Below are positions 27,566 through 47,455 of a stretch of DNA of 64,000 bases, piece by piece (positions within the stretch are counted from its first letter, which is position 1; each line of letters begins with the position of its first letter). The stretch is from Bifidobacterium sp. (GTDB lineage Bacteria > Actinomycetota > Actinomycetes > Actinomycetales > Bifidobacteriaceae): NCBI RefSeq assembly GCF_022647885.1, contig NZ_JALCLM010000001.1:62001-126000 (forward strand), in the 5' to 3' direction. The notes beneath the pieces were generated by a model. That model had not been told where the DNA came from. It saw only the letters and a program-made list of their open reading frames with translations, and did not search any database. Made by a program: the position numbers and the translations under genes.

Positions 27566-27642
27566 CGAGATAACTGCAATAAAAGTGGAGCAATTGCCCC
27601 CAAAAATTGCAATTTAGCTCCACTTTTATTGCAGTTATCTCG
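27566..27642. repeat. long palindromic element, copy 1
   Basis: Perfect 26-base arms (27566-27591 and 27617-27642; core GATAACTGCAATAAAAGTG) surround a 25-base spacer. The right arm contains the stop codon and last codons of the lipoprotein gene read on the minus strand. It lies between convergent genes and could act as a bidirectional terminator. Two close relatives occur at 43002-43072 and 47237-47307. Arm differences from these are matched on both sides, so base pairing is kept. Confidence 0.85.
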
Positions 27643-28330
27643 TGATGGCGTGAATACTGCCGCTGATCAGCGAGCTGATGTTACTAGTGAAAAATTTTGT
27701 GGCATGGAAGACTTCAGCGTCAGGTAGTTGTGCTTTCCCATCGACCGTTTTGCTCTCGATCCAACCAATACACAGACCGGTTTCATCATCAACCGTCAAA
27801 GTATAGGTCACTCCGGTTTTGGATGTACCAACTCCATTACTGAACAACGCTGCAGTGCGACCAAGGACAGTCACCGAGCCCTCTTGTTTGGTGCCAGGCA
27901 TGTTCTGTTGTGTGGACGTCTTGGCGTAGGTGTCAAAGTCCTTGGTGATATTACTAATCTGGTCTTCGCTGTAACTCTTACTATCCGAGGATATGTAAGC
28001 ACCGTTGCTGTCGGGCTTATAACGTTGCCACTGCCCTTTTCCCGATGCGATGAACAATGTGTCAATATCTCCCGAAACATATCTGATATTGCCTTGAAGA
28101 TCTTGTGTTTTTGAAATCTCCATGTTATTTCCCTGCGGGTATTGCACTGAATACGTTATGGAATATTCAGCGGGGAACTCGGGGGTATAGGTGTCACCGA
28201 AAGCTCTGTCAGCAATTCCGTCAGCTGAGCCACACGCAGAAACAGCGAAAGCAACAGCAGCAATTGCTGCTGTCAGAGCTAATGCTTTTACTCGCTGCAT
28301 AAAAACTGCCTTCATAAAAACTCCCTTCAT
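27635..28330 (-). CDS. lipoprotein of unknown function with tripled start region
   Basis: A secreted lipoprotein of up to 231 residues. The signal peptide core (LALTAAIAAVAFAV) ends in the lipobox SACG. The mature domain is mostly beta-like, with no motif I recognise. It follows a CmpB-like membrane protein and an ABC-2 exporter on the same strand and may belong to that operon. The start is ambiguous: three 15-base tandem repeats each contain a ribosome-like GAAGG and an in-frame ATG (28330, 28315, 28300). All give a usable signal peptide; I list the longest ATG. The last codon and TAA stop lie in palindrome copy 1. Confidence 0.8.
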   Translation of the reverse strand: MKGVFMKAVFMQRVKALALTAAIAAVAFAVSACGSADGIADRAFGDTYTPEFPAEYSITYSVQYPQGNNMEISKTQDLQGNIRYVSGDIDTLFIASGKGQWQRYKPDSNGAYISSDSKSYSEDQISNITKDFDTYAKTSTQQNMPGTKQEGSVTVLGRTAALFSNGVGTSKTGVTYTLTVDDETGLCIGWIESKTVDGKAQLPDAEVFHATKFFTSNISSLISGSIHAITR

Positions 28331-28363
28331 CAATACTTCCTTCAAAAATCTTGCCTATATTGC

Positions 28364-29176
28364 TTAATTGCTGTGCGTCCGTGCCGACGTGTTATCAGAT
28401 GAGGTGCCAGCGCGTCCATGCGCAAAAACCATGGTGGGAAAAAGATTTTTCATACGGGTGTCATCGAAATGCGAGTCGAGGATTCTGACTGTTGCTGTGG
28501 ATGCTGCTGTAGATGTGAGTCCAAAATCCTCTTGTCTCTCCTGCCATCGGGTTATGGCAAGGCATGTGACTAGGCCGTTAATACACATGAACATGGCGAC
28601 CAGGCTGGTAGCAGCAGGCATTATCCAACCTCGGTCTGCGGTGATACGCGAGATGCCAATCCTCACACCAATCAGAGAGATAAAGCGAAAAAGTGGCACT
28701 GATACCAAGATGTAGAAGAAACCTAACACACCCCAGATCAGACCCATCTTGAGGCTTATACGCCCATCAAGGTTCAGCACATCATTCGAATAGTCCCATG
28801 ATGTTGATCCAAGCCATAAATCCTGAAAATAACTCACCAGGAATTCAACTGCTGTCCCCACTACAGAGCATGCCACGAAGCAAGTGAGCATATTTCGACC
28901 TGTCAAATACCGTGTCAACAGTTGTAGCGCGACCAAGCCAAGACCATATACCAAGCTAAACGGTCCCCACACCAATGAGGAACGATTCATCCACAGGCCT
29001 TGCGAAAAACCAACCCACAGCACTTCAATCCCATATCCTGCAATACTTCCGAATATGAACATCCAGAACAACGAGAGCACCTGTCGTCGAAGTGGCATCG
29101 CCGTACTATCACTTATAACGCTGTGTCTGGTCACCTCCCGCACCCTTTGAAGCGGCGTACCTGCTTGTACAGTCAT
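28364..29176 (-). CDS. CmpB/DUF1113-like multi-pass membrane protein
   Basis: A 270-residue protein with about six hydrophobic segments. The stretch FGSIAGYGIEVLW followed by NRSSLVWGPFSLVYGLG matches the putative ABC-transporter-associated membrane family PF06541 (ABC_trans_CmpB). Members have no proven reaction and often lie beside exporters. The start ATG 29176 follows AGAGGGA. It lies 44 bases downstream of the ABC-2 permease gene on the same strand, so cotranscription with the exporter and two-component genes is likely. The long polar N-terminal (about 30 residues) and C-terminal tails are not conserved motifs I know. Confidence 0.75.
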   Translation of the reverse strand: MTVQAGTPLQRVREVTRHSVISDSTAMPLRRQVLSLFWMFIFGSIAGYGIEVLWVGFSQGLWMNRSSLVWGPFSLVYGLGLVALQLLTRYLTGRNMLTCFVACSVVGTAVEFLVSYFQDLWLGSTSWDYSNDVLNLDGRISLKMGLIWGVLGFFYILVSVPLFRFISLIGVRIGISRITADRGWIMPAATSLVAMFMCINGLVTCLAITRWQERQEDFGLTSTAASTATVRILDSHFDDTRMKNLFPTMVFAHGRAGTSSDNTSARTHSN

Positions 29177-29220
29177 TCATCCCTCTTCCCGTCCCGCATA
29201 TTCCGGCGATTCACCAGCAT

Positions 29221-30108
29221 TTACACATCTCTTCTATTGGTAACTGCCGAAGCGATGGCGGCGAACAGTGCGACATATGCAACAAGCACCAGGAATGCGC
29301 CCCAAACCGGTAGTGAGAAGGCGCTCTGTGGCGTAATCGCACTGAAAACTTGATCTCCCGCTCCCGTGGCCGACCCGTATAACACTGCTCCTGCTGTGGA
29401 TGGGAGAAATGCAGCCACGATTCCCGAAATTGAAGGTGGAAGTATCACCATGGATCCTGGAAGCGCCCAAAACATGAGCAGAACAATGCTCACTGCGCCT
29501 GCACTTTTACGTAAAATCGCGCCAACCATCAACGACAGCACCGCTATGAATGCCATGTAAAACGGTGCGCCGATAAACATTCTCAAGATGTCGGCACTGA
29601 AATAGTCGAATACTAACCCGCGTCCGGAGAGCACATGTGCAATGACGAAAGAGACCATTATGGATACAGCCGTGACAACAAAACTCGCAATCGCAACAAC
29701 AGCAGTCTTCGCAGCCAGACTCTGCAAACGTTTTGGAACAGCATTGAAGGTACTGCGAATCTGCCCTGTACGGTATTCGTTCGTGATGGTGAACACTCCC
29801 AGAAGCATGGCGCAGAACTGAGCTCCGACAACGCCTCCTGTTGCCATGACCATCACAGAGTCGGCACTGACATCGCCGTTCGACCCTTGTATGGCTGATG
29901 CGATAGCCATGGCTATCATCATGATGACAGCGATTCCACCAAGCCAATATGTTGAGACCCGAGTTCTCATCTTGATCCACTCGCTGCTTATCAGACCTGA
30001 CCACGTTACTCTGGTCTTCCCAATAGTCGGCAGCACATGAGTTACGTCGCTTCTAGAAGCTGTGCTTTGAGATGTTGTATCGTGCGAAGTCAACGCTGTA
30101 ATGCTCAT
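29221..30108 (-). CDS. ABC-2 type exporter permease
   Basis: A 295-residue membrane protein with six hydrophobic segments, the first at about residues 55-75 and the rest from 90 to 290. The pattern FTITNEYRTGQIRSTFNAVPKR after the second segment is typical of ABC-2 permeases of bacitracin or lantibiotic exporter systems. It forms the membrane part for the ATPase encoded just upstream, whose stop lies two bases before this start. The ribosome site GGAGA overlaps the ATPase end. A two-component system precedes the pair, as in antibiotic-sensing and resistance modules. Confidence 0.88.
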   Translation of the reverse strand: MSITALTSHDTTSQSTASRSDVTHVLPTIGKTRVTWSGLISSEWIKMRTRVSTYWLGGIAVIMMIAMAIASAIQGSNGDVSADSVMVMATGGVVGAQFCAMLLGVFTITNEYRTGQIRSTFNAVPKRLQSLAAKTAVVAIASFVVTAVSIMVSFVIAHVLSGRGLVFDYFSADILRMFIGAPFYMAFIAVLSLMVGAILRKSAGAVSIVLLMFWALPGSMVILPPSISGIVAAFLPSTAGAVLYGSATGAGDQVFSAITPQSAFSLPVWGAFLVLVAYVALFAAIASAVTNRRDV

Positions 30109-30110
30109 AA

Positions 30111-31013
30111 TTATTCTCCAGTCTTGTATTCAACTGCATCTGCAGTCAGGTTGAGATATGCATCTTCAAGAGAGGATCCAACTGGCGTCAGTTCGTAGAG
30201 TGCAAAGCGGCGTTCCGCAGCGATTTGCCCGATCTCCTCGATTTCAATCCCCGTGAGTGTGGCAGTGTCACCTTCGAGTGATTTCGCCTCCACACTTCTG
30301 CTGGCAAGCAGCTCAAGCAATTGCGACAACTGGGGACTACGCACTCGCACAGAACCTTTGCCAGAGACGATGTCATCAACAGGAGCATCTGCGAGTATCT
30401 TGCCTTTGCCAATCACGATGATGTGATCAGCCGTTTGAGACATCTCAGCCATCAGGTGACTTGAGATGAGAATGGTGCGCCCTTCAGCGGCGAGAGCCTT
30501 CAAAGTGTCACGAACCCACCGCACTCCTTCTGGATCCAAACCATTGATAGGCTCGTCAAGAATAAGTACCTGTGGGTCTGCCAGAAGAGCATTGGCGATA
30601 CCCAAGCGTTGTCCCATACCAAGTGAGAATCCACCCATCTTGTTGTCGGCAACTTTGGCGAGTCCTGTCAGGTGCAGAATCTCATCAACACGTTTGGCTC
30701 CCAGACCATGCGTAGCCGCTTGAGCAAGCAGAAACTGGCTGGGGGTGTTGTGTGGGTTGAACGCCTTCGCATCAAGAAGACTCCCAACAATCTGCAAGGG
30801 ATTCTCAAAAGAGCTGAGTGCTTTGCCATCGAAGAGAACATCACCACTGTCTGGTCTGTGCAGACCGAGCAGCATCCTCATTATGGTGGATTTACCTGCA
30901 CCATTAGGGCCCAGGAATCCCGTTACCTTCCCGCCGTGAACTGTGAAGCTGGCATTATCAACAACCAGTTTCTTGCCATAGTGTTTGCTGATGTTATTCG
31001 CTGTAATGTGCAT
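30111..31013 (-). CDS. ABC exporter ATPase (BcrA-like)
   Basis: A 300-residue ATPase: Walker A GPNGAGKST near residue 38, signature FSLGMGQRLGIA near 130, Walker B VLILDEPINGLDPEG near 150, switch His in ISSHLMAEM. The C-terminal extension (TPVGSSLEDAYLNLT) is typical of BcrA-type exporters of peptides or drugs. The family core starts at MHITANNISKHYGKK, so the ATG at 31013 is preferred over an upstream GTG at 31055, although neither has a good ribosome site. It works with the ABC-2 permease downstream and is probably controlled by the NarL-type pair upstream. Confidence 0.9.
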   Translation of the reverse strand: MHITANNISKHYGKKLVVDNASFTVHGGKVTGFLGPNGAGKSTIMRMLLGLHRPDSGDVLFDGKALSSFENPLQIVGSLLDAKAFNPHNTPSQFLLAQAATHGLGAKRVDEILHLTGLAKVADNKMGGFSLGMGQRLGIANALLADPQVLILDEPINGLDPEGVRWVRDTLKALAAEGRTILISSHLMAEMSQTADHIIVIGKGKILADAPVDDIVSGKGSVRVRSPQLSQLLELLASRSVEAKSLEGDTATLTGIEIEEIGQIAAERRFALYELTPVGSSLEDAYLNLTADAVEYKTGE

Positions 31014-31112
31014 GCATTCATTGTGGAATGGCGAAAGCAACAATGAATCGTACACATGAATCGGCTTTTCTACTCCACCCGCAGTAGGAGCTAGTAGTAC
31101 CAGCCTTGGTAT

Positions 31113-31781
31113 TTAGTCGTTATCTGGCATCATTCCGGCTTGTATAGCGAAAGAAACCAGCTGCGCTCTGTCACGCGCATCAACTTTCATCATGGCTCGA
31201 TTGGCATGCGTTTTCACAGTAAACGGAGAAATAAAAATCCTTCGACTGATCTGTATATTGCTCAGTCCGTCCACGATGAGCTGCACAATCTCAAGCTCGC
31301 GAGGCGTTAGTTGTTTAAACAAAGCAGCTTTGTCCGAATCAAGAACGACGGCTTTCGGATCACTGATGTTATCGACAAGTGCATGCACTGCCCGGTCTGA
31401 CAGGGCATGCTCACCAGCTGCACTGCGTAAAATCCCCTCAGTAAGTTCACTCGGACTTGCTCCCTTACCCAAGAAGCCGTCAGCGCCAGCCTTCAACGCC
31501 GCAAGAACATTGTCATCTGCATCAAAAGTGGTCAACACCAGAATCCGAATATTCTCGGAATTTGGAAGCTTCCGTATCCTCCGTGTGGTCTCTACCCCAT
31601 CGATACCAGGCATATTCAAATCCATCAGCACTACGTCGACCTGAGTGGTTGAAAGAATGCTCAACGCGCTGATACCGTCTCCCGCTTCAGCCACAATTTC
31701 TATGTCTTGATGCGCATTAAGTATGACTCGAAGGCCTGCACGGAGCATTTCCTGATCATCAACCAGCATGACGCGTACCAT
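31113..31781 (-). CDS. NarL/LuxR-family response regulator
   Basis: A 222-residue regulator: receiver domain with VDDQE near residue 8, phospho-Asp in VVLMDLNMPGIDG near 54 and Lys in LKAGADGFLGKG near 105; then a LuxR-type helix-turn-helix from about 155 (LTPRELEIVQLIVDGLSNIQISRRIF). The kinase gene ends two bases before its ATG, so the two form one unit. The most likely targets are the exporter operon downstream and perhaps the divergent membrane-protein genes; an 18-base palindrome in the divergent region is a candidate site. Confidence 0.92.
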   Translation of the reverse strand: MVRVMLVDDQEMLRAGLRVILNAHQDIEIVAEAGDGISALSILSTTQVDVVLMDLNMPGIDGVETTRRIRKLPNSENIRILVLTTFDADDNVLAALKAGADGFLGKGASPSELTEGILRSAAGEHALSDRAVHALVDNISDPKAVVLDSDKAALFKQLTPRELEIVQLIVDGLSNIQISRRIFISPFTVKTHANRAMMKVDARDRAQLVSFAIQAGMMPDND

Positions 31782-31782
31782 C

Positions 31783-32964
31783 TCACTGCCCTACTGTTAC
31801 TGGCAAAGATGCCACAACCCAGAACAACGGGAACTCAGATTGTATTTCCATCGATCCCCCAACGGATTCGGCTCGTTCACGCATACCCACTAGTCCGTTC
31901 CCTCCTCCAGGCTCTGACGGGTGTTTGCGTGAACCATGCCTATTGACGATTTCTATCTTTAGCTGTTCAGCCTCAATATCTCTCTCCACGACAATGGATG
32001 CCATACCATCACCATATCGGTGAGCGTTCGTCAAACCTTCCTGCACTATCCGATATGCTGCGATACTCACCTGCGGAGCAATGCCATCACCAAGATTATG
32101 GATAGTGGCGTCGATATGCATGCCACCGGTTCGATACGATTCTATGAGATTCGAGATGAGCTCATGACCCGGAGTTGCTCCAAGCTCATTCTCATCACGG
32201 CCTGTATTCAGTATGGCAAGAATCTGTTGCGTCTCTTTGAGCACTTCCCGCACTGAACCACGAGCAGCCTCAAGACTGCTACGCACGCCCTCCTCATCTG
32301 AATGTAACGAAACCTCCGCAGCGCCAAGATGCATATTAATCATGGCTACCTGATGTCCCACGCTGTCGTGCAAATCTCTTGCAATACGCAATCGTTCCTG
32401 TGCAATACCCCTATCGACCGCTGCTCTTCGAGCCGTCTGTTCCTCATGAATTCTTAACTGCACCTCTTGGCGATAGCGTGCATTCCCTCGAGCAGCAGCA
32501 CCGAAGACAGCGCACACAATAACTGAAAAAGCGAAAATCGAAGAGCTTGCATCAATCGATATATCTATAGTGCCTGTGGAAAGCGCTGACGGTACAAAAA
32601 CGCTCAGCGCCAGAATCGGTGCGACTGCAATTGGGGTGAGCCCACGTAGAGTCAGCAAGAACGCCGAGAAACACACCATTGACCATGTCCCGACAGCGGC
32701 AGTATCTGACAGCAAGGTCAGCACAGGCGCAATCGCAATAACGACTAGCCCTGCCCAAGGGAAACGGTAACTTAGTGTAACTCCCAACAGTAAAACGCTC
32801 GGCGGCATGTATGCCTGCCAATCACTGCCCGAGTACGCAACGGTATAGAAAATAACCAGCGATGCAGTAAGCACGATGGATACAAGGCCCACTTCCATGA
32901 TGCGAGGCATCAGCAACCACATCGGTGTGTGCTCACTACTTCGTTTGCCGTTACGCCTTACCAC
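31783..32964 (-). CDS. sensor histidine kinase, HisKA_3 type
   Basis: A 393-residue kinase with five or six hydrophobic segments in the first 160 residues and little extracellular sequence, so it probably senses the membrane or works with the ABC exporter. The phospho-His lies in RLRIARDLHDSVGHQ near residue 205. The ATPase domain shows IVQEGLTNAHRYG and GNGLVGMRERAES. The start is a GTG at 32964, eight bases after AGAGGA. It is the first gene of the run of minus-strand genes down to the lipoprotein and is the partner of the adjacent NarL-type regulator. Confidence 0.9.
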   Translation of the reverse strand: MVRRNGKRSSEHTPMWLLMPRIMEVGLVSIVLTASLVIFYTVAYSGSDWQAYMPPSVLLLGVTLSYRFPWAGLVVIAIAPVLTLLSDTAAVGTWSMVCFSAFLLTLRGLTPIAVAPILALSVFVPSALSTGTIDISIDASSSIFAFSVIVCAVFGAAARGNARYRQEVQLRIHEEQTARRAAVDRGIAQERLRIARDLHDSVGHQVAMINMHLGAAEVSLHSDEEGVRSSLEAARGSVREVLKETQQILAILNTGRDENELGATPGHELISNLIESYRTGGMHIDATIHNLGDGIAPQVSIAAYRIVQEGLTNAHRYGDGMASIVVERDIEAEQLKIEIVNRHGSRKHPSEPGGGNGLVGMRERAESVGGSMEIQSEFPLFWVVASLPVTVGQ

Positions 32965-33000
32965 GAGATCTGTCCTCTCATGCGAATGGTTAATGCCTAT

Positions 33001-33018
33001 CTACTGCATATGCAGTAG
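33001..33018. promoter_or_regulatory. perfect 18-base palindrome, candidate operator
   Basis: CTACTGCATATGCAGTAG is a perfect palindrome 37 bases before the histidine kinase start and 126 bases before the divergent membrane-protein gene. NarL-type regulators bind inverted repeats of this size. It is placed to control both directions, but I found no second full copy elsewhere in the window, so its ligand protein is inferred. Confidence 0.45.
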
Positions 33019-33143
33019 TGCGGTCGGTCTGTCAGGAGGATTCACTTTCCCCTGCATCGGATGAAGATAGTCATACAAACCGCCGGTAGGTGAAAACACC
33101 TTGGCGTATGACGGTTCACATACAACAACACTAGGAGTACACC

Positions 33144-33710
33144 ATGAACGCTGAGACATCAACAATGGGTGAACAGACCACAGACTATGCAGGGTATGAA
33201 TACACCACAGTCCGAGCTCCTCAACAGCTCGAGAACCTCTATCGTGACGCGTACCGCAATTTCGGTTGGAATTTCGAACGTTCGGAAGTCCGTCCGCCAA
33301 TACGACCGCTCCCTTTGCTCCCAGCTATACGCTCAAATACCGCAACATTGAGTTTCAAACGCGACCGGAATATCAAAAACCAGCCGATGATGCAGGATTT
33401 GCAGCACAAGGTCAACGCTTCTCTGGCGTCAATAGCCCGCATGGAGCGTTCGAAGAAGAGCACGGCCATACTCGTCGCAGCGGTTCTGGGCATCATCGGC
33501 GCGGGATTCCTCGCAGTATCCATGTTCATAGGAGCTGTGAGCACCGGAGGCATCATCCTCGGAGCTATTGGGCTGGTCGCATGGGTCGGCGGGGCAATTG
33601 CATACTTTGGTATCAAATCCGCCCGCACCGCGCGACTCGACCCTCTGATCGACCAAGAACAGACAGTGATCTTCCAAACTGGCGAGCAGGCGGCTCGCCT
33701 CATCCACTAA
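33144..33710 (+). CDS. two-helix membrane protein of unknown function
   Basis: A 188-residue protein. The N-terminal half is soluble and basic (LYRDAYRNFGWNFE, LSFKRDRNIKNQPM), followed by a short helix likely to be coiled coil (LQHKVNASLASIARMERSKK). Then come two adjacent membrane helices (about residues 110-160) and a short C-terminal tail. I recognise no domain. Start ATG 33144 follows AGGAG. It is divergent from the two-component/exporter operon and heads a plus-strand group with a 29-residue peptide, a frameshifted membrane protein and an MFS pump, so it may respond to the same signal. Confidence 0.75.
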   Translation: MNAETSTMGEQTTDYAGYEYTTVRAPQQLENLYRDAYRNFGWNFERSEVRPPIRPLPLLPAIRSNTATLSFKRDRNIKNQPMMQDLQHKVNASLASIARMERSKKSTAILVAAVLGIIGAGFLAVSMFIGAVSTGGIILGAIGLVAWVGGAIAYFGIKSARTARLDPLIDQEQTVIFQTGEQAARLIH

Positions 33711-33755
33711 GCACCATCATCTAATCAATCTCAACAACAATCAGGAGGCAACATC

Positions 33756-33845
33756 ATGAAAGTATTTATCGCAATCATTACAGTCATCTGTGCAGGAGCA
33801 GGATTCTTCATCTGGAAAGTCAACAAAGAAAACTCTCCAGCATGA
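33756..33845 (+). CDS. 29-residue single-helix membrane microprotein
   Basis: A very short gene: ATG at 33756, seven bases after a perfect AGGAGG, TGA at 33843-33845. The product starts MKVFIAIITVICAGAGFFIW and ends with a polar, charged tail (KVNKENSPA), that is, one membrane helix with a short basic end. It lies 45 bases after the preceding membrane-protein gene on the same strand. The excellent ribosome site and clean helix make it more credible than chance. It could be a small subunit of a membrane complex or a toxin-like peptide; the function is unknown. Confidence 0.6.
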   Translation: MKVFIAIITVICAGAGFFIWKVNKENSPA

Positions 33846-34146
33846 GCAAAAGATCTCATTACTTCAACAGTACGGCTCAAAGTCAATATTCAGACTCAAC
33901 AGCCGTACTGTGATGCACTCAAAACAGTCGTTCGTCACAATCAGTCACCCGAGTTTCAAGTCCTTGTTCTAGTAACGATGCGAAGAACTTCTGAGCCACA
34001 GCAGCCATTCATCACGCAGAGCATGCTTTCGAGAATATTGCTCTGCCTGAACAGAAATCCCGGGATCAAGTGGCTGACGCACATTTGATACACACTCACA
34101 GCTGTGTCACTTTCCTTATGTTCAACAGCAAGCAGAAAGGTCGATG
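33846..34146. other. intergenic region with an inverted repeat
   Basis: No gene is supported in these 301 bases. An 11-base inverted repeat, ACAGTACGGCT (33867-33877) and AGCCGTACTGT (33901-33911), with a 23-base loop lies just after the microprotein and may end its transcript, although no T-run follows. A 10-base palindrome CACAGCTGTG lies near 34097-34106 in what should be the promoter region of the next gene. Confidence 0.4.
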
Positions 34147-34918
34147 ATGGGTAATCGGATCCGCTCGACATGGAGAAGCTATCAGGCAATGGCCGTAGTT
34201 GATAGGACAGCTCTTGCTGCTGCAGGCTCAGTCGCCAGCGGCATCAGTATGGCAGTCGTCAAAATCGGCTTGGGTATTATGACCCATTCCTTGCTGTTCA
34301 TCGTCAATGCCGTCTACTACATAGCATTGTGCTTATCACGTTTAGCTATTGTCCAACAACATCGCAGTATCAGAACCATCAGTGATTCACTGAAAAGACT
34401 TGAACGAGAAATGAGCGTGTATCACCGCACTGGATTGCTGTTATGTTTCATCGGACTCTCATATGCTGTTTTCTCGGGATTCATGTTTTTCGTCAAAGCA
34501 CCCACGCGCTACACACAGATTGTTGCTATCACCGTTGCCACCATCACCGCAGTCAAAATAGGCGTTGCAATTCGTGGGCTTGTAGTAGCCAAAAGAGAGC
34601 GTAATCCGATGGATTCTGCAATCAAATTCATCACTTTCACCGACGCTCTGCTCTCCTTGGTTGTTTGTGCAGAACGTTATGTTGGAATCTCAAGGGTCGG
34701 ACAGTGCGAGCGAGAGTTCAGGCATGCTCGGCATGGGGCTAGGTACCGCAGTAATCGTTGCTGGGCTCATCATGTTTCTTCGCCGGAACATCGGGGAAGA
34801 TTTCAAACAGAAAGCAATCGAAGAGAGCAAAGCGCTCACGCTCGAACAATTGGAGAGCACTGACTCAGTGGAAGTCATCGAGCACCATAACCGTCAGGCT
34901 ATGGAAGCAAGAAAGTAA
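34147..34918 (+). pseudogene. membrane protein gene with a probable single-base frameshift
   Basis: Two overlapping frames together make one plausible membrane protein of about 257 residues. The first (from ATG 34147, after GAAAGG) runs through three or four helices and ends its sensible part at FTDALLSLVV. The second, from about 34664, continues VQNVMLESQGSDSASE with another helix (GTAVIVAGLIMFLRR) and a charged tail to TAA 34916-34918. Removing one T from the TTT at 34664-34666 restores a single frame. Beyond the shift the first frame becomes Arg/His-rich nonsense. It is either a real inactivating mutation or a sequencing error. The family is not recognised. An MFS gene starts three bases later. 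Confidence 0.7.
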
Positions 34919-34920
34919 TC

Positions 34921-36351: not shown

Positions 36352-36386
36352 GGCTTAAGGCTGCAATAACCCCAATACCCAGCAAC

Positions 36387-37037: not shown

Positions 37038-37059
37038 GGTGATTCTCCTTGTTGTTTCT

Positions 37060-39654: not shown

Positions 39655-40153
39655 TAGCAACCCCCTTAAGTGCTGCGCACTTGGGATCACCAAGGCCGAG
39701 TGCCGCCCAGTCGACGGTCCCATTTGAGTAATCGATTCCTTCTAAGAAGTTCGACAGAGGATATCCGCTCAACTCTTTAAGAAAGAGATTCTCCGCATGT
39801 GCAAAAACGTCCATGATCTCGTTTTCGCTCTGCAGCACTCGATCACCGCGATGGAAAATTTTCTGTGCAAAATGCGATAAGGCATAGAAATGACCATGAC
39901 CTTCTATTGCGTAGAACGCATCAAGCATCGTGATTTCACTAATTGGGCGAGCAAGCGTGTACCCACCGCCTTTGCTGGCATCTGATGTGACCAGGCCCTC
40001 GGAGACTAGACGTGGCATGATTTTCTTCAGATAGGAGGAGGAGACATCAAGCCGCTTACTGATAACCGCACTTTTTACGGGTTTATGATCTTGCTGCAAG
40101 GCAAGCATCAGCAACACACATGCTGCTTGTTCAAGACTTTTCTTGATTTTCAT
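39641..40153 (-). CDS. Rrf2-family regulator without iron-sulfur cysteines
   Basis: A 170-residue winged-helix regulator: the helix-turn-helix lies in SAVISKRLDVSSSYLKKIMPRL and the wing in SKGGGYTLARP, both typical of Rrf2. The usual cysteine triad near residues 92-104 that holds an iron-sulfur cluster is absent; only Cys near 12 and near 162 are present. It belongs with the redox or ligand-sensing, cluster-free branch (YwgB/YwnA-like). The ATG at 40153 is preferred; a TTG at 40177 is possible. It is first in a unit with the YhgE protein and the NmrA-like reductase and probably regulates them. TGACAAA (40172-40178) and TTTGTCA (40215-40221) may form an operator. Confidence 0.85.
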   Translation of the reverse strand: MKIKKSLEQAACVLLMLALQQDHKPVKSAVISKRLDVSSSYLKKIMPRLVSEGLVTSDASKGGGYTLARPISEITMLDAFYAIEGHGHFYALSHFAQKIFHRGDRVLQSENEIMDVFAHAENLFLKELSGYPLSNFLEGIDYSNGTVDWAALGLGDPKCAALKGVASEER

Positions 40154-40429
40154 TTCAACACACCAATCCAGTGACAAACTTTATCCACGGATAATCATGC
40201 ATCCGGTGACATGCTTTGTCAACAGATATCAGCGCGCGGCTTATGCCCGCAACGAACAGCCCTATGCCAGGAGGCACCATCGCAAACCGTATGGCGAAAC
40301 TTAATACTGCTGAGGACACAATTCGAGGGAACCTAATCTCATCAGCAGCCGCATGAACAACACAAGCAAATTGAGAGTAGAGCGAAATGGTGAACTTCCT
40401 AAAGATCGCTGCTAGTACCGTAGTGAGTC

Positions 40430-43006
40430 GTGAACAATGATGATGGAAGCACGAACACCACAAGTCCTGCAAACAACAGTGCCGAACCTGATCACATCAG
40501 CGTGCGCGGGGCCCGTGTAAATAATCTGAAAAACATCAATGTCGATATTCCTTTGCATCAACTGGTTGGCATCGGTGGTGTATCAGGGAGCGGCAAGTCT
40601 TCACTGGCACTCGGCGTGCTCTATGCCGAAGGCTCACGCCGATACATCGAAGCGCTTTCAACGTATACGCGCAGACGGATGTCACTAGCACCCAGAGCTG
40701 ATGTCGATGCAGTGCAACACGTTCCTGCTGCCCTGGCATTGCGGCAACGCCCTGATGTTCCAGGCATTCGCTCAACTTTCGGCACATCCAGCGAGCTACT
40801 CAATGTGCTGCGTTTGATGTTTTCACGTCTCGCCAGCCACGTCTGTCCAAATGGGCATCATGTGCCTCCTACCATCAACGTCGCCGCCGAACGGCCTATC
40901 ATCTGCCCTACCTGCGGGGCAAACGTTAAGGCTCCTGGCGCTGAAGAGCTCGCTTTTAATGCTGCCGGTGCATGTCCGCGTTGCCAAGGAACCGGACTAG
41001 TACGCGCTGTTGACGATCGCACCCTGGTGCCCGACCCATCAAAGACCATTGACGAGGGTGCAGTGCTTCCCTGGCAAATGTTCGGATTCAATGTACAGCC
41101 CGATATCGTACGTGAATTCGGGGTTCGTACAGACGTGCCTTGGAATGAACTGAGCGACCGTGAACGAAACATCGTATTCACCGGCCCCGAAGAGAAAAAA
41201 CATATCACCCTCACCAGTGTCAAAGGTGTGCACAAGCTCGACTTCACCTTCCGCAACGCACGACTCACTGTTACCAAGGAGCTCGATCGCGCAGACAGCG
41301 AGCGTCGGCTTAAGCGGGTAGCGCGCTTTCTGAATGAAGGAACCTGCCCTGAGTGCAGCGGTACCAGACTGAGCGAGGCTGCTCGCGCTCCACAGATTAA
41401 CGGACAAAACCTTGCTGATGTCAGTTCTATGACTCTTGATGATGTGCTTGCTTGGGCTCCGACTGTGACGCATAACCTGCCTGAAGATATGCAATCAATG
41501 GCGCTTGGTCTGGTGAGCACACTCGAATCCATGGCACAACGACTTGTGGAATTGGGACTGGGATATCTAACACTCGACAGGGCTGGCTCCACACTCTCGA
41601 CAGGTGAACGCCAGCGGGTTCAGCTAGCACGTGCTGTGCGAAACGAAACTACAGGCGTGCTGTATGTTCTTGACGAGCCTTCGGTCGGCCTGCACCCAGC
41701 GAATGTGGAAGGCCTTATTGGCGTGATGCAGGATCTGTTGAAAGACGGCAACTCTGTGGTGTTTGTGGATCATGACGTTCAGGTGTTGCGGCAGGCCACG
41801 TGGCTTATCGAGATCGGCCCCGATTCCGGCAGCCAGGGAGGGCGCGTTATCGCCGAGGGAACGATCAAAGATCTTATCGCTTCGCAACAGCAGATTCAGG
41901 GGCAAGCAGAGGAAAAATCACATTTGAAAGGCTCGAAGTTAGCCGGATTCCTGGCCGGAACCGAAGACATCGTCATACGCGATCGGATTCCGTCTGCGCG
42001 CATATTCGACAATGGGCACATCACCATGTCCACTAGCGCAATTCACACTGTGCATCCCCTGCAGGTCGATATCCCCAAAGGACGGCTTACTGCAATCACA
42101 GGAGTCTCCGGTTCAGGGAAAACAACTATGTTGCTCGAATCGTTGGTCCCCTCCATCAATGCTGGCAGGAACGGCCGCCTGATGCCTGAACATGTTCGAA
42201 GCGTTGATGCAGCTGGTATCACTACGACACATGTGGTTGATGCAACACCAATCGGTATTAATGTTCGTTCCACCGTAGCGACCTATTCAGGGGTCATGGA
42301 CGGACTGAGAAAGGCTTACGCACTGACTGATGCAGCGAAAGCCGATGGGCTAACGGCCTCTGACTTCTCGTACAACACCGGTTCTCTAGCCTGCACGCGA
42401 TGCGAAGGAACGGGTGAAATCTCACTCGATGTGCAGTTCTTGCCAGATGTGGTCATTCCCTGCCCCGATTGTCACGGTTCAAGATTCCTGGCGAAGGCGC
42501 AGAACTACCTTCTGAACGGAATTTCTCTACCTGATGTACTTGGACTGACCATTCACGAAGCCATTGACAGATTGTCCGATCTCCCGCGCGTGGTCCGTAG
42601 GCTGCACGCCTTCGACCAATTGGGGCTGGGGTATCTGACCTTGGGCGAGGCCACCCCTTCATTATCTGGTGGCGAGGCTCAGCGACTCAAACTTGTTAAT
42701 CAGCTTCACAAAGATCAATCTGATGCAGTATTCGTACTTGATGAGCCAAGCGTCGGACTACATCCTCTCGACGTACGCACGCTGCTTAAAGTCCTTGACC
42801 AACTAACTGAACGCGGCGCCACAGTTCTGGTTATCGAGCATGATCTCGATATCATCGCCAACGCCGATTACATCATTGATATGGGGCCAGGAGGTGGAGA
42901 ACAGGGCGGTCGTATTGTCGCCACGGGTATTCCCGCACAAGTTGCTAAGGACCCGAACTCGATAACTGGCCAATATCTGTCTCCATTACTGGCCCAGCAT
43001 AGATAA
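40430..43006 (+). CDS. UvrA-like ABC ATPase (UvrA2/drug-resistance branch)
   Basis: An 858-residue paralogue of the excinuclease subunit UvrA, about 80-130 residues shorter than the repair enzyme. It has two ABC domains: Walker A GVSGSGKSS near 50 and GVSGSGKTT near 558; signatures LSTGERQRVQLAR (altered) and LSGGEAQRLKLV; Walker B VLYVLDEPSVGLH and VFVLDEPSVGLH. Zinc-finger pairs include CPTCG, CPRCQGTG, CPECSGTR, CTRCEGTG and CPDCHGS. The segment after the first Walker A lacks the UvrB-binding domain length. This form occurs in DNA-intercalator resistance (DrrC-like). The start is a GTG at 40430 with a weak ribosome site. The final Arg codon and TAA lie in palindrome copy 2. Confidence 0.87.
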   Translation: MNNDDGSTNTTSPANNSAEPDHISVRGARVNNLKNINVDIPLHQLVGIGGVSGSGKSSLALGVLYAEGSRRYIEALSTYTRRRMSLAPRADVDAVQHVPAALALRQRPDVPGIRSTFGTSSELLNVLRLMFSRLASHVCPNGHHVPPTINVAAERPIICPTCGANVKAPGAEELAFNAAGACPRCQGTGLVRAVDDRTLVPDPSKTIDEGAVLPWQMFGFNVQPDIVREFGVRTDVPWNELSDRERNIVFTGPEEKKHITLTSVKGVHKLDFTFRNARLTVTKELDRADSERRLKRVARFLNEGTCPECSGTRLSEAARAPQINGQNLADVSSMTLDDVLAWAPTVTHNLPEDMQSMALGLVSTLESMAQRLVELGLGYLTLDRAGSTLSTGERQRVQLARAVRNETTGVLYVLDEPSVGLHPANVEGLIGVMQDLLKDGNSVVFVDHDVQVLRQATWLIEIGPDSGSQGGRVIAEGTIKDLIASQQQIQGQAEEKSHLKGSKLAGFLAGTEDIVIRDRIPSARIFDNGHITMSTSAIHTVHPLQVDIPKGRLTAITGVSGSGKTTMLLESLVPSINAGRNGRLMPEHVRSVDAAGITTTHVVDATPIGINVRSTVATYSGVMDGLRKAYALTDAAKADGLTASDFSYNTGSLACTRCEGTGEISLDVQFLPDVVIPCPDCHGSRFLAKAQNYLLNGISLPDVLGLTIHEAIDRLSDLPRVVRRLHAFDQLGLGYLTLGEATPSLSGGEAQRLKLVNQLHKDQSDAVFVLDEPSVGLHPLDVRTLLKVLDQLTERGATVLVIEHDLDIIANADYIIDMGPGGGEQGGRIVATGIPAQVAKDPNSITGQYLSPLLAQHR

Positions 43007-43072
43007 CTGCGATAAAAGTGGGGATTTTTGGCGAAAACTAGTCGAATTATCCCCACTTTTATCGCAGTTATC
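43002..43072. repeat. long palindromic element, copy 2
   Basis: Perfect 24-base arms (43002-43025 and 43049-43072; core GATAACTGCGATAAAAGTG) surround a 23-base spacer starting TTTTGGCGAAAAC. The left arm supplies the TAA stop of the UvrA-like gene, whose last sense codon AGA straddles the arm edge. The element sits between convergent genes. It is identical in all 71 bases to copy 3 at 47237-47307. Confidence 0.92.
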
Positions 43073-43077
43073 GTGTT

Positions 43078-43911
43078 TTAGACGATTTTCGTCTTGCTGG
43101 GGTCGATGAAACGCTCATCCATAATCACCTGTTTTATGTTTTGGGCACTAATTCTTCCGCTGATGGGATTCTTGATGCTGTCAATCGAAGAGTTGATGTC
43201 GGCATCGATGCCCGAGCAATATTCAAAGGCAAGGTCCGTATGTAACAGCCTACAATTTCTCAAGGTCAGCCCTTCCACATAACACAGGCCCTGATCACTT
43301 TCCACAATACAATTGACCAGTGTGAGGTTTTTCGTATTCCACCCCAGATATTCGCCGTTGATTTTGGAATCCATAATCGTCACATTCTCACAGTTCCAAA
43401 AGGCGTCCTTGGAAAGTAAAGTAGAGTCGCGGATTTGAACATTCTTGGCACCGTCAAAACAGTAGTTTCCCACTAAATCCAAATGGGAAGCGACAATATC
43501 CGTAGAATTCATACCGAAGTAATCCCCACGCGCCTGAACATTGGATAGCCGCACGTTATCACAATTCCACAAGGTTTCATTGGCATCAGAAAAATGCACA
43601 TGCTTCAACTCAACGCCTTCACATCTGCGAAAGTTTTTCTCAGCTTGAATCACACTGTCAGATACACTGATGTCTTTCGTATACCAAATACCCGAGCGCG
43701 CCATTGATTCGAGAATCGACTGTCGTACCGTGATATTTCGGCCATACCAGAGCGGATATTTCCAAGTGAAGGAACAATCGTCAAGCTCAATGTTTCGACT
43801 TTCTTTAAGAGGCGACTCCCCCTGCCCAAAAGTAACGCCTGATAGCTGAGCATCCTGCTCAGCGAATAGGGACCGCTCTCCCTCAAAATAGCCATTAATA
43901 TACTGCGTCAT
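43078..43911 (-). CDS. DUF3737 family beta-helix-like protein
   Basis: A 277-residue soluble protein of the DUF3737 family. It is built of repeating units of about 20 residues with the pattern N-V-x-I-x-D-S-x-I and aromatic-Asn-Cys-x-x-V (LWNCDNVRLSN, FWNCENVTIMDS, YLGWNTKNLTLVNC), as in right-handed beta-helix or pentapeptide-like folds. The N-terminus MTQYINGYFEGERSLF is characteristic of the family. No enzymatic activity is known. The start ATG 43911 follows GGA by five bases; a TTG at 43914 is less likely. It is divergent from a LysR gene, which may regulate it. Confidence 0.88.
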   Translation of the reverse strand: MTQYINGYFEGERSLFAEQDAQLSGVTFGQGESPLKESRNIELDDCSFTWKYPLWYGRNITVRQSILESMARSGIWYTKDISVSDSVIQAEKNFRRCEGVELKHVHFSDANETLWNCDNVRLSNVQARGDYFGMNSTDIVASHLDLVGNYCFDGAKNVQIRDSTLLSKDAFWNCENVTIMDSKINGEYLGWNTKNLTLVNCIVESDQGLCYVEGLTLRNCRLLHTDLAFEYCSGIDADINSSIDSIKNPISGRISAQNIKQVIMDERFIDPSKTKIV

Positions 43912-44043
43912 CAATATCCATTTCTGTTCGTCCCCAACACAACGTCATATCCGCAAGCACGATGCTAAGAACGATTACTTCATCTGTCTAATGCTTATAA
44001 TGAATGCCAAACTATACAAAATTTGCATGGATTGGGGACTGTA

Positions 44044-44943
44044 GTGGAACTACGCGTGCTTCGGTACTTTTTGGCTGTTGTTGAGGAACGAAACATCTCA
44101 CATGCAGCTGAAAGTATGTTCGTTTCCCAACCAACCATCTCGCGTCAGCTCAAAGATCTTGAGGAAGAACTTGGCGTTACGCTCTTTCAACGTGGCAGTC
44201 GCACCATCGCACTTACTGAGGCGGGAGAGTACCTGGCTTCACAGGCGCGGCAAATATTGGCACTCAGCGATAAAACAACAGCGAACATCCAACAGAGCCG
44301 ACAAATCACAGGCAGCGTGCTTATCGGTAGTGCGGAAGCACCAATGATTAAGACCTTAGGGCAAGCGATACATCGTTTAAATGAAACTTCACCTGGTATC
44401 CATGTCAATATATATAGTGCCGATGCCTCCGAAGTCCATACTCGTATCAACTCTGGGGTATTCGATTTTGGTGTAGTTATGGAACCAAGCGATACAAGTA
44501 ATTACCACTTTCTGCGGTTGCCTGGGAAAACCACCTGGGGTCTATTGACCAGAAAAGACTCTGCGTTAGCGCACAACACGAACATATCTGCATCCGACCT
44601 AGAAAATCTGAAACTGATCACGTCGCAGCAGCACGGCAGTGCTGATACCCTCTCCGCTTGGTTTGGCTCGAGCGATATCGCACTCGATATTGTCGCCACA
44701 TACAATCTCCTCTACAACGCATCAATGCTGACAATGGCTGGTGTTGGTTCAACCATCTGTCTTGACGGCATCATCAACACAACCGACACCGAGCTCACCT
44801 TCATCCCACTCTCACCTCGACTTGAATCACAAGCGAGTCTGATATGGCCCAAGTCACAGCCGCTCTCACCCGCCGCAAACGCACTCCTCGATGCAATCAG
44901 AGAATTCGTTCCTGACTTCGATCGTGACTCCATACTGGTATGA
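44044..44943 (+). CDS. LysR-family transcriptional regulator
   Basis: A 299-residue LysR regulator. The N-terminal winged helix-turn-helix is textbook (VLRYFLAVVEERNISHAAE, VSQPTISRQLKDLEEELGVTLFQR), followed by a linker helix and a periplasmic-binding-like effector domain starting GSVLIGSAEA near residue 95. The start is the GTG at 44044, giving MELRVLRYF; the upstream TTG frame is not family-like. It is divergent from the DUF3737 gene with 132 bases between, the classic LysR arrangement. It converges on a dead aldo/keto reductase gene, which was perhaps another former target. Confidence 0.92.
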   Translation: MELRVLRYFLAVVEERNISHAAESMFVSQPTISRQLKDLEEELGVTLFQRGSRTIALTEAGEYLASQARQILALSDKTTANIQQSRQITGSVLIGSAEAPMIKTLGQAIHRLNETSPGIHVNIYSADASEVHTRINSGVFDFGVVMEPSDTSNYHFLRLPGKTTWGLLTRKDSALAHNTNISASDLENLKLITSQQHGSADTLSAWFGSSDIALDIVATYNLLYNASMLTMAGVGSTICLDGIINTTDTELTFIPLSPRLESQASLIWPKSQPLSPAANALLDAIREFVPDFDRDSILV

Positions 44944-44953
44944 TTCCCTCGAT

Positions 44954-45865
44954 TCAGGAAACGTTATGACCTGCAGCTTCGATAAGGCCATACCACTGCG
45001 CTCTGGTTAACACGATGTCAGAACCTGCAGCAGCAAGTGCAACGCGCTCGGGATTTGTAGTTCCCAACACCACTTGCATTCCCGCAGGATGCCGAGTTAT
45101 CCAGGCGCTAGCAATCGCTAACGGGCTTACTCGGTACTGTTGTGCAAGCGAGTCAAGCGCTTCATTCAGTGCCGGATACTCTTGCGAATTGAAGAACACT
45201 CTGTCTTGAAAGCCCTTCTGGAATGGCGACCATGCTTGAATGGTGATGTGGTTCAGCCTGCAGTAGTCCACAATCCCGCCGCCATCTCTAGTTATTGAGT
45301 CCTCCTGGCTACCATATTCGACGATAAGCCTTGCGCAATAACCGTCGAATGAGTGATAGACAACTGTATTTGATTCACCATAAGTGGCTGAGTAACAGCA
45401 GATTTCAGAACTGCTATCTGCGCCTAGGAGTGTGATTCGAAACACCAAAAGCACGAACCACCTCTTCAGGCTCCACGAGTGCATCAGGACGATGCAGCAG
45501 CAACACATCGAGATAGTCAGTCTGTAAAGCATTCAATGAAGCTTCAGCTGAATCGACTATATGCTCATACGAGGAGTCGTAATACCAGGGATCGGCAACG
45601 ATACCCATCTTGCTTTGCACGACGATTTTGTCGCGTTCAGATGAACTCAATTGCACAGACTGAGCAAATCGACGTTCACACATATGTGTGCCACCGGCAC
45701 ATTAAAACCGTATAAATCGGAATGGTCGAAATATGTAACACCAACAGACCGATATGCCTCATACAAGGCGCGAATTTCTTCATCAGACTGTTCCGCTATA
45801 CGCATCATGCCACCGATAATATTTGGCTGCTGTATCCCACTTGAGCCAAAAGATACTGTTCGCAT
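44954..45865 (-). pseudogene. decayed aldo/keto reductase gene
   Basis: Three fragments in different frames on the minus strand rebuild an aldo/keto reductase of the YdhF type. The start (45865 to about 45700) reads GGMMRIAEQSDEEI and YFDHSDLYG with the catalytic Asp and Tyr region. The middle (about 45683-45414) reads CERRFAQSVQL, DKIVVQSKMGI with the catalytic Lys, and YLDVLLLHRPDALVEPEEVVRAFGVSNH. The end (about 45320-44954) reads ITIQAWSPFQKGF and VVLGTTNPERV. At least two frameshifts separate them. About ten residues are missing between EVVRAF and GVSNH, so this is not a sequencing artefact. No functional enzyme can be made. Confidence 0.88.
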
Positions 45866-45932
45866 CAATATTTCCTATCTCTGAATTCGAAGTTGTGACG
45901 AGTGCTGAAGTTCTTGCAAGCAATACTGATAT

Positions 45933-47012
45933 TCAGATGTTTACCCTAATGATCTGGTCATCATGTTGACCTGGGTCCCCACGCCCATCAGTGTTATTGG
46001 TCAATATCCATAGCATTCCGCCGGGAGACTGAACCACGTCACGGAGTCGCCCATACTCACCTTGGAACATGTTTGTTGAGTTGGAAAGATCGTTGACTGA
46101 CACGGATCGTAAAGACTCGCCACGCAGATTAGCTATATAGATGGTTCCGTTGACTATGGTCATACCACTCGGGCTTGCATCTGACGGATGCCATTGCTGT
46201 ACTGGATCAACAAAACCCTCGCGCTGCCCAATCCCTTCAACTGTCGGCCAACCATAGTTGCCACCAGCTGTAATCACATTCAGTTCATCCCAAGTATCTT
46301 GACCGAATTCCGAGGAGTATAGAGTGCCCTTGTCATCCCAAGCCAAGCCTTGTGGATTTCTGTGGCCATAGCTATATACAGGCGAGTTAGGGAAGGGGTT
46401 ATCTTGCGGAATGCTGCCGTCTGGCGACAGTCTCAGAATTTTACCTGCCAAGCTTTCAAGATCCTGAGCATTGTTGCGATTACCAGCATCACCGGTCGTT
46501 GCGTACAACATGCCGTCCGGCCCGAATGCAATACGGCCTCCGTCATGATAGCTAGCCGATGGGATCCCTGAAAAAATTGTTTCGCTCTGTCCGAGTGAAA
46601 GCGAAGAGTCTTGTCCATTCAGTTGGTATCGCAAGATTCGATTATCTTGATCTGTAGTCATATAGGCATAGAGATAACCCTCGTGTATTGCTATGCCGAG
46701 CAAACCGCCCTCACCGGAAGCAGAGGCATCTGCGATATTCCCTACCTCCCGAGCCTCGCCTGATCCTGCAAATTCAAGGATTTTGCCAGAGTCGCGTTCA
46801 CTAATCAGCGCAGTGTTATTGAGAAAAGCAATTGACCAAGGCGCATCCAAACCCTGAACGAGTGACGCAGTATCACTAGAAGCAGTGCTAGTCGAAGATT
46901 GCTGAGTGTTAGCCGTATCTTCACCAGAATTACCACTTGAACATGCGACCAGCGCAAGTGACATCACCAGTACACCAATAGCGGCCAATATTCGTCGTGC
47001 CTTTGACATCAT
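45933..47012 (-). CDS. GSDH-family sugar dehydrogenase-like lipoprotein (PQQ-type fold)
   Basis: A 359-residue lipoprotein with signal peptide and lipobox LVACSS, a Ser/Thr-rich linker, then a six-bladed propeller of the glucose/sorbosone dehydrogenase family: LDAPWSIAFL, EGGLLGIAIHEGYLYAYMT, HDGGRIAFGPDGMLYATTGDAG, GHRNPQGLAWD, YGWPTVEGIG. In soluble aldose dehydrogenases these loops bind PQQ and calcium. The catalytic His of HDGGRIAFGPDG is present. The start ATG 47012 (or 47009) follows AAGGGGGG. The gene is monocistronic. If the host lacks PQQ, the protein must scavenge it or do something else. Confidence 0.87.
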   Translation of the reverse strand: MMSKARRILAAIGVLVMSLALVACSSGNSGEDTANTQQSSTSTASSDTASLVQGLDAPWSIAFLNNTALISERDSGKILEFAGSGEAREVGNIADASASGEGGLLGIAIHEGYLYAYMTTDQDNRILRYQLNGQDSSLSLGQSETIFSGIPSASYHDGGRIAFGPDGMLYATTGDAGNRNNAQDLESLAGKILRLSPDGSIPQDNPFPNSPVYSYGHRNPQGLAWDDKGTLYSSEFGQDTWDELNVITAGGNYGWPTVEGIGQREGFVDPVQQWHPSDASPSGMTIVNGTIYIANLRGESLRSVSVNDLSNSTNMFQGEYGRLRDVVQSPGGMLWILTNNTDGRGDPGQHDDQIIRVNI

Positions 47013-47455
47013 TGTCCCCCCTTGTCTGAAATTTGCCGTTGCAAGATTTGCCCCACGTATTTGCCTATTCACCTGAATACACAGCCGCCTAGATACACAT
47101 TCACCCGCGTATCCATTCACCAAGATTGGGATATTCAAGCGGGCAGTCACACTATTCATGACCGTATATATGCACAGTGCCTATGGCAGATTCCTGTCGT
47201 TTGAATATGTTCTCATAGCTTCACCTCTTCCGCTTTGATAACTGCGATAAAAGTGGGGATTTTTGGCGAAAACTAGTCGAATTATCCCCACTTTTATCGC
47301 AGTTATCTCAAATCCGCACCTTCGAGGGGCTTTAATACAATCCCAACAAATCTCGAACCTTCGGCTAACGCCCGTTTCGTACTCTCCTTACTACCAGGCA
47401 AGGTTTCGAACAGATTCGGGCCTTCACCACCATCCAGCGAGAGGTTTGAGGAGAT
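47013..47455. other. divergent intergenic region carrying palindrome copy 3
   Basis: These 443 bases separate the divergent GSDH lipoprotein and acyltransferase-like genes and hold no gene I can support. The only strong structure is the palindromic element at 47237-47307, about 225 bases from the first start and 149 from the second. Promoters for both genes must lie here, but no convincing -35/-10 pair was seen by eye. Confidence 0.5.
47237..47307. repeat. long palindromic element, copy 3
   Basis: Same 24-base perfect arms (47237-47260 and 47284-47307) and the same 23-base spacer as copy 2, identical over all 71 bases although 4.2 kb apart. Here it lies between divergent genes, where a terminator would not be expected, and it overlaps no coding sequence. 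Flanks (CGCTTT and TCAAAT) show no clear target-site duplication. Confidence 0.92.

Follow-up and report, generated by a model that had tools for sequence, protein, structure and literature searches.

Among described systems, the closest to the elements considered here are the REPINs (REP doublets forming hairpins, REP standing for repetitive extragenic palindromic sequence), which the relevant passages of two papers present as extragenic palindromes with tens to hundreds of copies, inverted arms and a highly diverse spacer, placed mostly between unidirectional and convergent open reading frames (ORFs) and accompanied by a single-copy partner gene that is flanked by the repeats (PMC3733652, PMC8049555). 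A window of 64,000 nucleotides from Bifidobacterium sp. (assembly GCF_022647885.1, contig NZ_JALCLM010000001.1), which spans positions 62001-126000 of the single 2,342,264-bp contig of this genome (G000), contains three copies of a palindrome that we term E. These belong to a dispersed family with a definite anatomy and covarying stems, sited behind stop codons and including an exact duplication of 71 bp. Elsewhere in the same genome two E copies enclose the gene of a protein, X, and the same design, with other arm sequences, is found in other Bifidobacteriaceae and in Coriobacteriia. We consider it probable that E represents a short mobile element, non-autonomous and with X as its dedicated partner, an arrangement resembling that of the REPINs and their REP-associated tyrosine transposases (RAYTs) but built on an unrelated nuclease.

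Anatomy, dispersal and genomic position of E

The E unit is 71 bp long, with 23-bp arms and a 25-nt loop. Copy 1 occupies 27569..27639 of the window (stem 27569-27591 with 27617-27639, loop 27592-27616), copy 2 43002..43072 and copy 3 47237..47307. All three are where a first-pass annotation, made from the sequence alone, had placed them, and a 20-mer from the arm has six matches in the window without mismatch against 0.01 expected from shuffles; the span of 27566-27642 given there for copy 1 is the 71-bp unit plus three extra pairs (CGA/TCG). Copies 2 and 3 are the same, loop included, as that annotation had noted, and their identity covers exactly 71 bp, the first base past either end already differing. 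As the identity stops at the ends of the element, one of them was copied recently from the other, over a distance of 4.2 kb. The loop of copy 1 is indeed unrelated to that of copies 2 and 3. Its arm changes are mirrored so that pairing is kept, again as described, except that two changes had been counted where there are three (pairs 10/62, 21/51 and 23/49), the third being a C-G versus A-T difference.

The family extends well beyond the window. With up to 3 mismatches the 20-mer arm is matched 28 times forward and 27 times in reverse across G000 (never by a reversed-pattern control), and these pair within single elements except for one arm with a more diverged partner. The pattern ATAACTGC-N40-70-GCAGTTAT recovered 33 copies in G000 and 113 in a sister genome of the same genus (G008) and none in the other 37 genomes searched, its control giving nothing but one match in one genome. 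A stricter exact pattern, run over 189 Bifidobacteriaceae genomes, found 30 copies in G000, 106 in G008 and none in the other 187. Counting a variant at 1059509 that the looser pattern missed, G000 holds at least 34 copies. Length is nearly constant: 31 of the 33 positioned copies in G000 measure 71 bp and the other two 72 and 73 bp, and among the 65 listed of the 113 in G008 there are 54 of 71 bp and 11 of 69-70 bp. The first-pass annotation had knowledge of no named element with this sequence, which agrees with the lack of any Rfam match within the window at the gathering threshold; and the outcome that it had named as refuting, namely only three copies without compensatory variation, did not arise, there being dozens, with covarying stems. 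A plasmid or phage origin of E was considered and dropped, as a blastn search with copy 2 gave no match.

The copies share a fixed outer core of 9 bp, which in copy 2 is GATAACTGC at 43002..43010 on the plus strand, mirrored at 43064-43072, and which is near-invariant among the copies compared; all copies read end in GATAACTGC/GCAGTTATC or a one-base variant. Such a core, in inverted repeats behind genes, recalls the DNA-uptake sequences that double as terminators in Neisseria and Pasteurellaceae, and it is conceivable that E is an uptake or protein-binding signal used in pairs. However, single cores in G000 number 131, of which about 66 stand in pairs (twice 33), and the roughly 65 that are unpaired show no excess over a control of 64, so that we give this explanation hardly any credence. 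From its conservation the outer core is likely to be a recognition end.

Covariation was assessed, from pair 2 inwards, on 84 distinct copies of 71 bp (31 rows from G000 and 54 from G008, with one duplicate; the 72- and 73-bp copies of G000 and the 11 listed copies of 69-70 bp in G008 were omitted, and the tests on loops alone also took a further copy, from site D of G008, described below). Stem pairs 2-9 are Watson-Crick in 84/84 copies, with a single change (pair 6, in one copy). At pairs 10-12, 14-15, 18-21 and 23 the type of pair varies and pairing is kept in 74-84 of the 84 copies, as against means of 41-72 with shuffled partners, while at positions 24-35 pairing is not above chance; the hypervariable 25-nt loop (43025..43049 in copy 2) shows no covariation across the family. 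These data define E as a fixed core of 9 bp, a covarying stem of 14 bp and a free loop of 25 nt. As the copies are related and not independent, the counts refer to sequences and not to events. The covariation among the 84 copies, with no excess pairing in the loop, lends support to the earlier suggestion that matched changes reflect either selection on the folded form or copying of one arm from the other.

Gene contexts were read off longest-ORF calls instead of gene predictions, some of them plainly in error, site A of G008 for example being called divergent; with this proviso, 30 copies in G000 could be classified, 17 as convergent, 10 as tandem and 3 as divergent, the other positioned copies being one within an ORF and two at edges. 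Convergent pairs are in excess compared to the background, where they account for 22 of 98 gene pairs drawn from five stretches (Fisher p = 6e-4). The stop codons that face G000 copies lie within 30 bp in 37 of 44 cases. The GATAA end of E supplies the stop codon of three ORFs, of which two lie in the window; the minus-strand ORF facing copy 1 takes its TAA from it (overlap -5). Fourteen copies in G008 comprise 7 convergent, 4 tandem and 1 divergent, with 1 inside an ORF and 1 at an edge.

Such positions, including the 7 convergent among the 12 classified copies of G008, would be expected if the E copies were bidirectional intrinsic terminators kept by selection, their shared sequence reflecting function. 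The RNA hairpins are likewise very stable, with folding z-scores of -13.8 for copy 1 and of -12.6 and -10.8 for the two strands of copy 2, whose inner stem is preceded by an ATAAAA tract and followed by a TTTTAT tract. Nevertheless, 187 relatives lack any copy by the exact pattern, and a terminator needs neither a near-invariant 9-bp outer core, nor a nearly constant length, nor the same core at unrelated genes. Moreover, the T-tract lies inside the stem, and a terminator pattern scan, confined to short loops and covering copies 1 and 2, reported nothing but the inner hairpin of copy 1, on a single strand, and was silent on copy 2. We therefore view selection for termination as a quite improbable origin of the family, and a terminator activity of the individual elements as plausible from their hairpins and positions.

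The flanks of 48 copies are biased in composition, with A at -1 in 39 and T at +1 in 34, A at -5/-4 in 28 and 25, and T at +4/+5 in 27 and 24. Across these 48 flank pairs no significant copy-by-copy pairing beyond the element ends was found, and direct repeats of 4 bp or more, as expected of a target duplication, occur in 0/48, those of 2-3 bp in 1/48.

Copy 2, which contains the TAA stop of a uvrA-like gene on the plus strand (40430-43006), lies between this gene and a DUF3737 gene on the minus strand (43078-43914). The UvrA-like protein, of 858 residues, falls short of the UvrA cut-offs of NCBIfam (695.8 versus 1147 bits and 675.9 versus 729.8) and may be a UvrA paralogue instead of the repair UvrA. 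Further along, at 44954-45683, two overlapping minus-strand ORFs in different frames appear by eye to be the halves of one aldo-keto reductase, that is, a broken gene.

Protein X and the palindromes that frame it

At a locus of G000 that we call site D, two E copies enclose a 305-residue protein, X, the sole listed ORF there. Among the other 26 of 27 genomes of the genus only G008 has a close relative (79% identity), which lies at a different chromosomal site and is again between two E copies. Close X is thus present as one copy per genome and in exactly the two genomes that bear E; by simple arithmetic, chance would place both in the same pair of genomes, out of 27, with a probability of 1 in 351.

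Across 32 relatives of X the motifs E.GGES, R.D and E.DG..K, together with further arginines, are invariant. One PADLOC model of AbiEi matches 27 of the 32 at E<=0.1 (best E 1.2e-10), in one member with ranges shown covering roughly the front 180 residues, and Pfam AbiEi_4 matches 5 of the 32 (best 5.8e-4), Pfam being otherwise nearly silent. An AlphaFold2 model of the X homologue of Bombiscardovia coagulans has a mean pLDDT (predicted local distance difference test) of 93.1 and a pTM (predicted template modelling score) of 0.89, and its C-terminal core shows the helix-strand-strand-strand-helix-strand order seen in PD-(D/E)XK nucleases. The 20 best Foldseek matches of this model include 14 with nuclease or nuclease-domain titles (Card1, McrC, EndoMS, TnsA, AvaII and others) and 6 without. 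X is accordingly predicted to be a protein of about 300 residues with an AbiEi-like front and a PD-(D/E)XK nuclease at the back. The order R.DF.W - E.DG..K - E..RE - RF in X looks by eye like the DUF559/Vsr pattern.

A second homologue of X in G000, at 852807 and 36% identical, is framed by a distinct family of palindromes of 64 bp. Members of this second family (AACTGTGC...GCACAGTT, 63-65 bp; L142:1186-1249, 1280-1343 and 2410-2473; L126:1935-1999 and 13354-13417; L127:12318-12380; L033:1379-1442) occur in G000 and G008, also away from the second homologue. Five more genomes of the genus encode distant homologues with 31-38% identity; at six loci of distant homologues the scan showed solitary palindromes, few in number and up to 67 bp long (next to X in G017), and nothing that formed a matched pair.

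The recurrence of the design is seen in a survey of 122 relatives of X, one genome per species, from which the best 80 loci were used for statistics. By their record titles these 80 are Actinomycetota, mostly Coriobacteriia and Bifidobacteriaceae. Palindromes of 44-100 bp are concentrated around X, with 91 in the 71.8 kb within 450 bp of it versus 119 in the 1,123 kb further off. A 13-mer common to both flanks of X is present in 55 of the 80 loci, whereas loci with swapped flanks give a mean of 3.5 and a maximum of 9 in 200 trials and an offset control 32 of 402; in 42 of the 55 this 13-mer is the arm of an inverted repeat. A pair of palindromes with matched arms frames X in 35 of the 80 loci (swapped flanks: mean 0.41, maximum 3 in 500 shuffles; offset positions of the same loci: 4 of 525). 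The loops of the palindromes framing one X may be direct or inverted copies of one another, a comparison to which three loci of G000 and G008 were added, the criterion having missed one (L136) with E on both sides.

The arms follow the protein. Among 26 loci, the 12 pairs with similar X (normalised score >=0.55), some of them near-identical X from closely related genomes, include 5 whose arms agree (>=0.85); the 313 other pairs include none. Further copies of the locus's own palindrome family more than 900 bp from X were seen, within the sequence covered, at 8 of 55 loci (mean 0.15 with swapped arms). In four genomes, two of Gordonibacter and one each of Paraeggerthella and Raoultibacter, all genera of the Eggerthellaceae, there are 10, 12, 24 and 6 dispersed copies respectively, the control giving 0; each is 54 bp long even though the pattern allowed 48-62, and by eye their stems covary and their loops are free. 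Outside the 80-locus sample, X of Collinsella aerofaciens, annotated as 'hypothetical protein' in the one annotated record consulted, is flanked by palindromes of a single family, four before it and two after (L224:2005-2305 and 3410-3552, in a 900-kb record labelled plasmid). No relative of X was found in viral contigs, one record was found among plasmids and one partial match among phages; frames of X that end early number 4 among the 80. Taken together these comparisons strongly support the association between X and palindromes.

Shared sites, apparent local copying and the proposed role of X

Six filled sites common to G000 and G008 were compared, namely the uvrA end occupied by window copy 2, 866211, 868206, 878124, site A and site D. 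The third genome in the comparison, the closest read after these two (G011), has no E by pattern and none in the sequence at sites A, D and the uvrA end, so that the site of copy 2 is filled in G008 and empty in G011. Site D carries E-X-E in G000 and a single E in G008. Site A has a single E in G000 and none in G011, and in G008 (C2:201827-206122; L107:1828-6123) two E copies with near-identical loops enclose an ABC-transporter operon of the sugar type, with a DUF624 protein, a solute-binding protein, one permease by Pfam and a second by eye. From its sequence, site A reads as gene gain or loss bounded by repeats, and both sites would be compatible with deletion between repeats as well as with insertion.

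Two further arrangements are seen in G008. At C2:152996-155822 (L127:997-3823) there is an array of the form E-X-E-gene pair-E, where G000 has one E and G011 has the gene pair without E. At C2:165974-166044 (L127:13975-14045) an imperfect outer palindrome, TCTTCGTCA...TGACGAAGA, has an E copy at its middle, which looks as though the element had landed in the loop of a hairpin already present; no general rule of this kind emerged across the 48 flanks.

Copying appears to act locally in G000, where the loops of neighbours within 6 kb are alike beyond chance (3 of 2000 permutations reach the same level), the effect being driven by the pairs 105002/109237 (25/25, window copies 2 and 3) and 915196/919682 (22/25). 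The latter frames genes that G008 also has, and the second E is absent there among the 65 listed copies, which suggests copying of the element only. Sites A and D had raised the idea that E copies are the ends of integron-like cassettes; we discarded it as 915196/919682 fits local copying of E alone better.

The occurrence of X between two E copies, and the resemblance of site D, with its single E in one genome and E-X-E in the other, to insertion or deletion at repeats, could also mean that X alone is mobile, as a nuclease gene inserting into or beside palindromes, and that E, as a terminator of the host or a structural repeat, owes its spread to recombination. The terminator positions of E and the copy apparently lying within the loop of an older hairpin would fit this as well. 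We nonetheless think it unlikely: E is limited to the two genomes with a close X, arm sequence follows the relatedness of X, and exact 71-bp copies exist without X between them, there being no X gene between window copies 2 and 3.

Our preferred reading, with E as the mobile unit and X as its partner, suggests the following course of events. E would spread one copy at a time into the gaps that immediately follow genes. In the most economical mechanism X would recognise its own family by the outer core and folded arms and would cut or nick DNA at either the hairpin or the target. A copy would thereby be made elsewhere, with no duplication of the target site. Convergent gene ends may tolerate E because its folded RNA, with an A-tract, a GC-rich stem and a T-tract, may double as a two-way terminator; in the gaps behind genes a stable two-way hairpin would be least harmful, or would act as a terminator.

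Several observations weigh against this reading. The preference for positions just behind stop codons is less clear in G008, where only 9 of the 18 stop codons facing the 14 copies lie within 30 bp. Neighbouring copies in G008 show no local sharing of loops (1171 of 2000 permutations), and at 4 of the 6 sites shared with G000 the loops are no more alike than those of random pairs, the likeness at the other 2 being weak (random fractions 0.08 and 0.04). By the criterion used, 45 of the 80 X loci have no matched pair, and Bombiscardovia coagulans, of the same genus, has no palindrome near X at all. G008 holds at least two copies of the second palindrome family and one X was found there, so that a family can exist without an X of its own. 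As to the protein, the nuclease domain is unnamed by Pfam, NCBIfam and PDB sequence searches, Foldseek of the model against the PDB returned nothing at E<=0.001, and its probabilities and TM-scores (template modelling scores) are low throughout.

Still, we lean towards a broader proposal, namely that these are representatives of a new class of mobile elements, in which hairpins of nearly constant length are spread through the genome by a dedicated AbiEi-fused PD-(D/E)XK nuclease that reads its own arms and co-evolves with them, a class widespread in Bifidobacteriaceae and Coriobacteriia. Populations of palindromic repeats would then have arisen on two or more occasions, with enzymes unrelated to each other. 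If X does move E, the class of the enzyme would make the system categorically new, and a second, unrelated enzyme with co-varying palindromes would indicate that hairpin populations are a general outcome. The tens of nuclease-palindrome pairs with different arms would furthermore offer a comparative system for hairpin copying, the dispersed repeats of these Actinomycetota would be explained, and a protein annotated only as hypothetical would gain a likely role.

Comparison with known systems

Could E simply be a REP or REPIN moved by a RAYT with its Y1 transposase domain, or a miniature inverted-repeat transposable element (MITE) of an ordinary insertion sequence (IS)? Its inverted arms, its short and highly diverse spacer, its extragenic location and the single-copy partner match what the relevant passage says of REPINs (PMC8049555). 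Yet the RAYT link that the first-pass annotation had proposed to look for did not materialise: Y1_Tnp (PF01797) is absent from 27/27 genomes of the genus at E<=0.001, against 5 of 14 control genomes positive, and none of the E copies read has the GTAG or CGTC end tag of REPs. Single cores in G000 do not exceed their control, and no direct repeat of at least 4 bp occurs in the 48 flank pairs. For a MITE, the arms in G000 pair off inside single elements and no full-length parent with the same ends was seen in that genome. We accordingly hold both forms of this explanation to be very improbable.

No description of such a nuclease-palindrome system was found in the open-licence literature; subscription papers were mostly outside this search, and a prior description is possible. 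For palindrome-associated elements with a Vsr-like nuclease this search gave no confirmation. As used in the relevant passage of PMC7290912, the name palindrome-associated transposable elements (PATEs) applies to ends-only derivatives of insertion sequences, with an IS605 example. E as proposed here would share with PATEs and MITEs that it is non-autonomous, consists of palindromic ends only and is moved in trans; it differs in that no Y1 enzyme was found in the 27 genomes of the genus and no target duplication of 4 bp or more in the 48 flank pairs.

On the protein side, X resembles AbiEi, the antitoxin of type IV toxin-antitoxin systems, through the AbiEi-model matches of its relatives, and departs from it by the addition of a C-terminal nuclease-like domain and, in G000, by standing as the sole listed ORF between its two E copies. 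With DUF559/Vsr-like nucleases its model shares the PD-(D/E)XK fold order, whereas the DUF559 model matches none of the 32 relatives at E<=0.1.

The nearest parallel is hence with REPINs and RAYTs. In common with these, E has inverted arms, a highly diverse spacer and extragenic dispersal (1 of 33 copies in G000 inside an ORF, 2 unclassified), and a single-copy partner flanked by the repeats in both genomes, the partner being another protein. Unlike theirs, the arms of E make up a single unbroken 23-bp hairpin that hardly varies in length, and the partner is AbiEi-like and PD-(D/E)XK-like where that of REPINs is a Y1 HUH enzyme. As E displays the features of a REPIN population and lacks those that define the RAYT system (Y1 and the GTAG/CGTC tag), it is best described as REPIN/RAYT-like and not as a member of that group.

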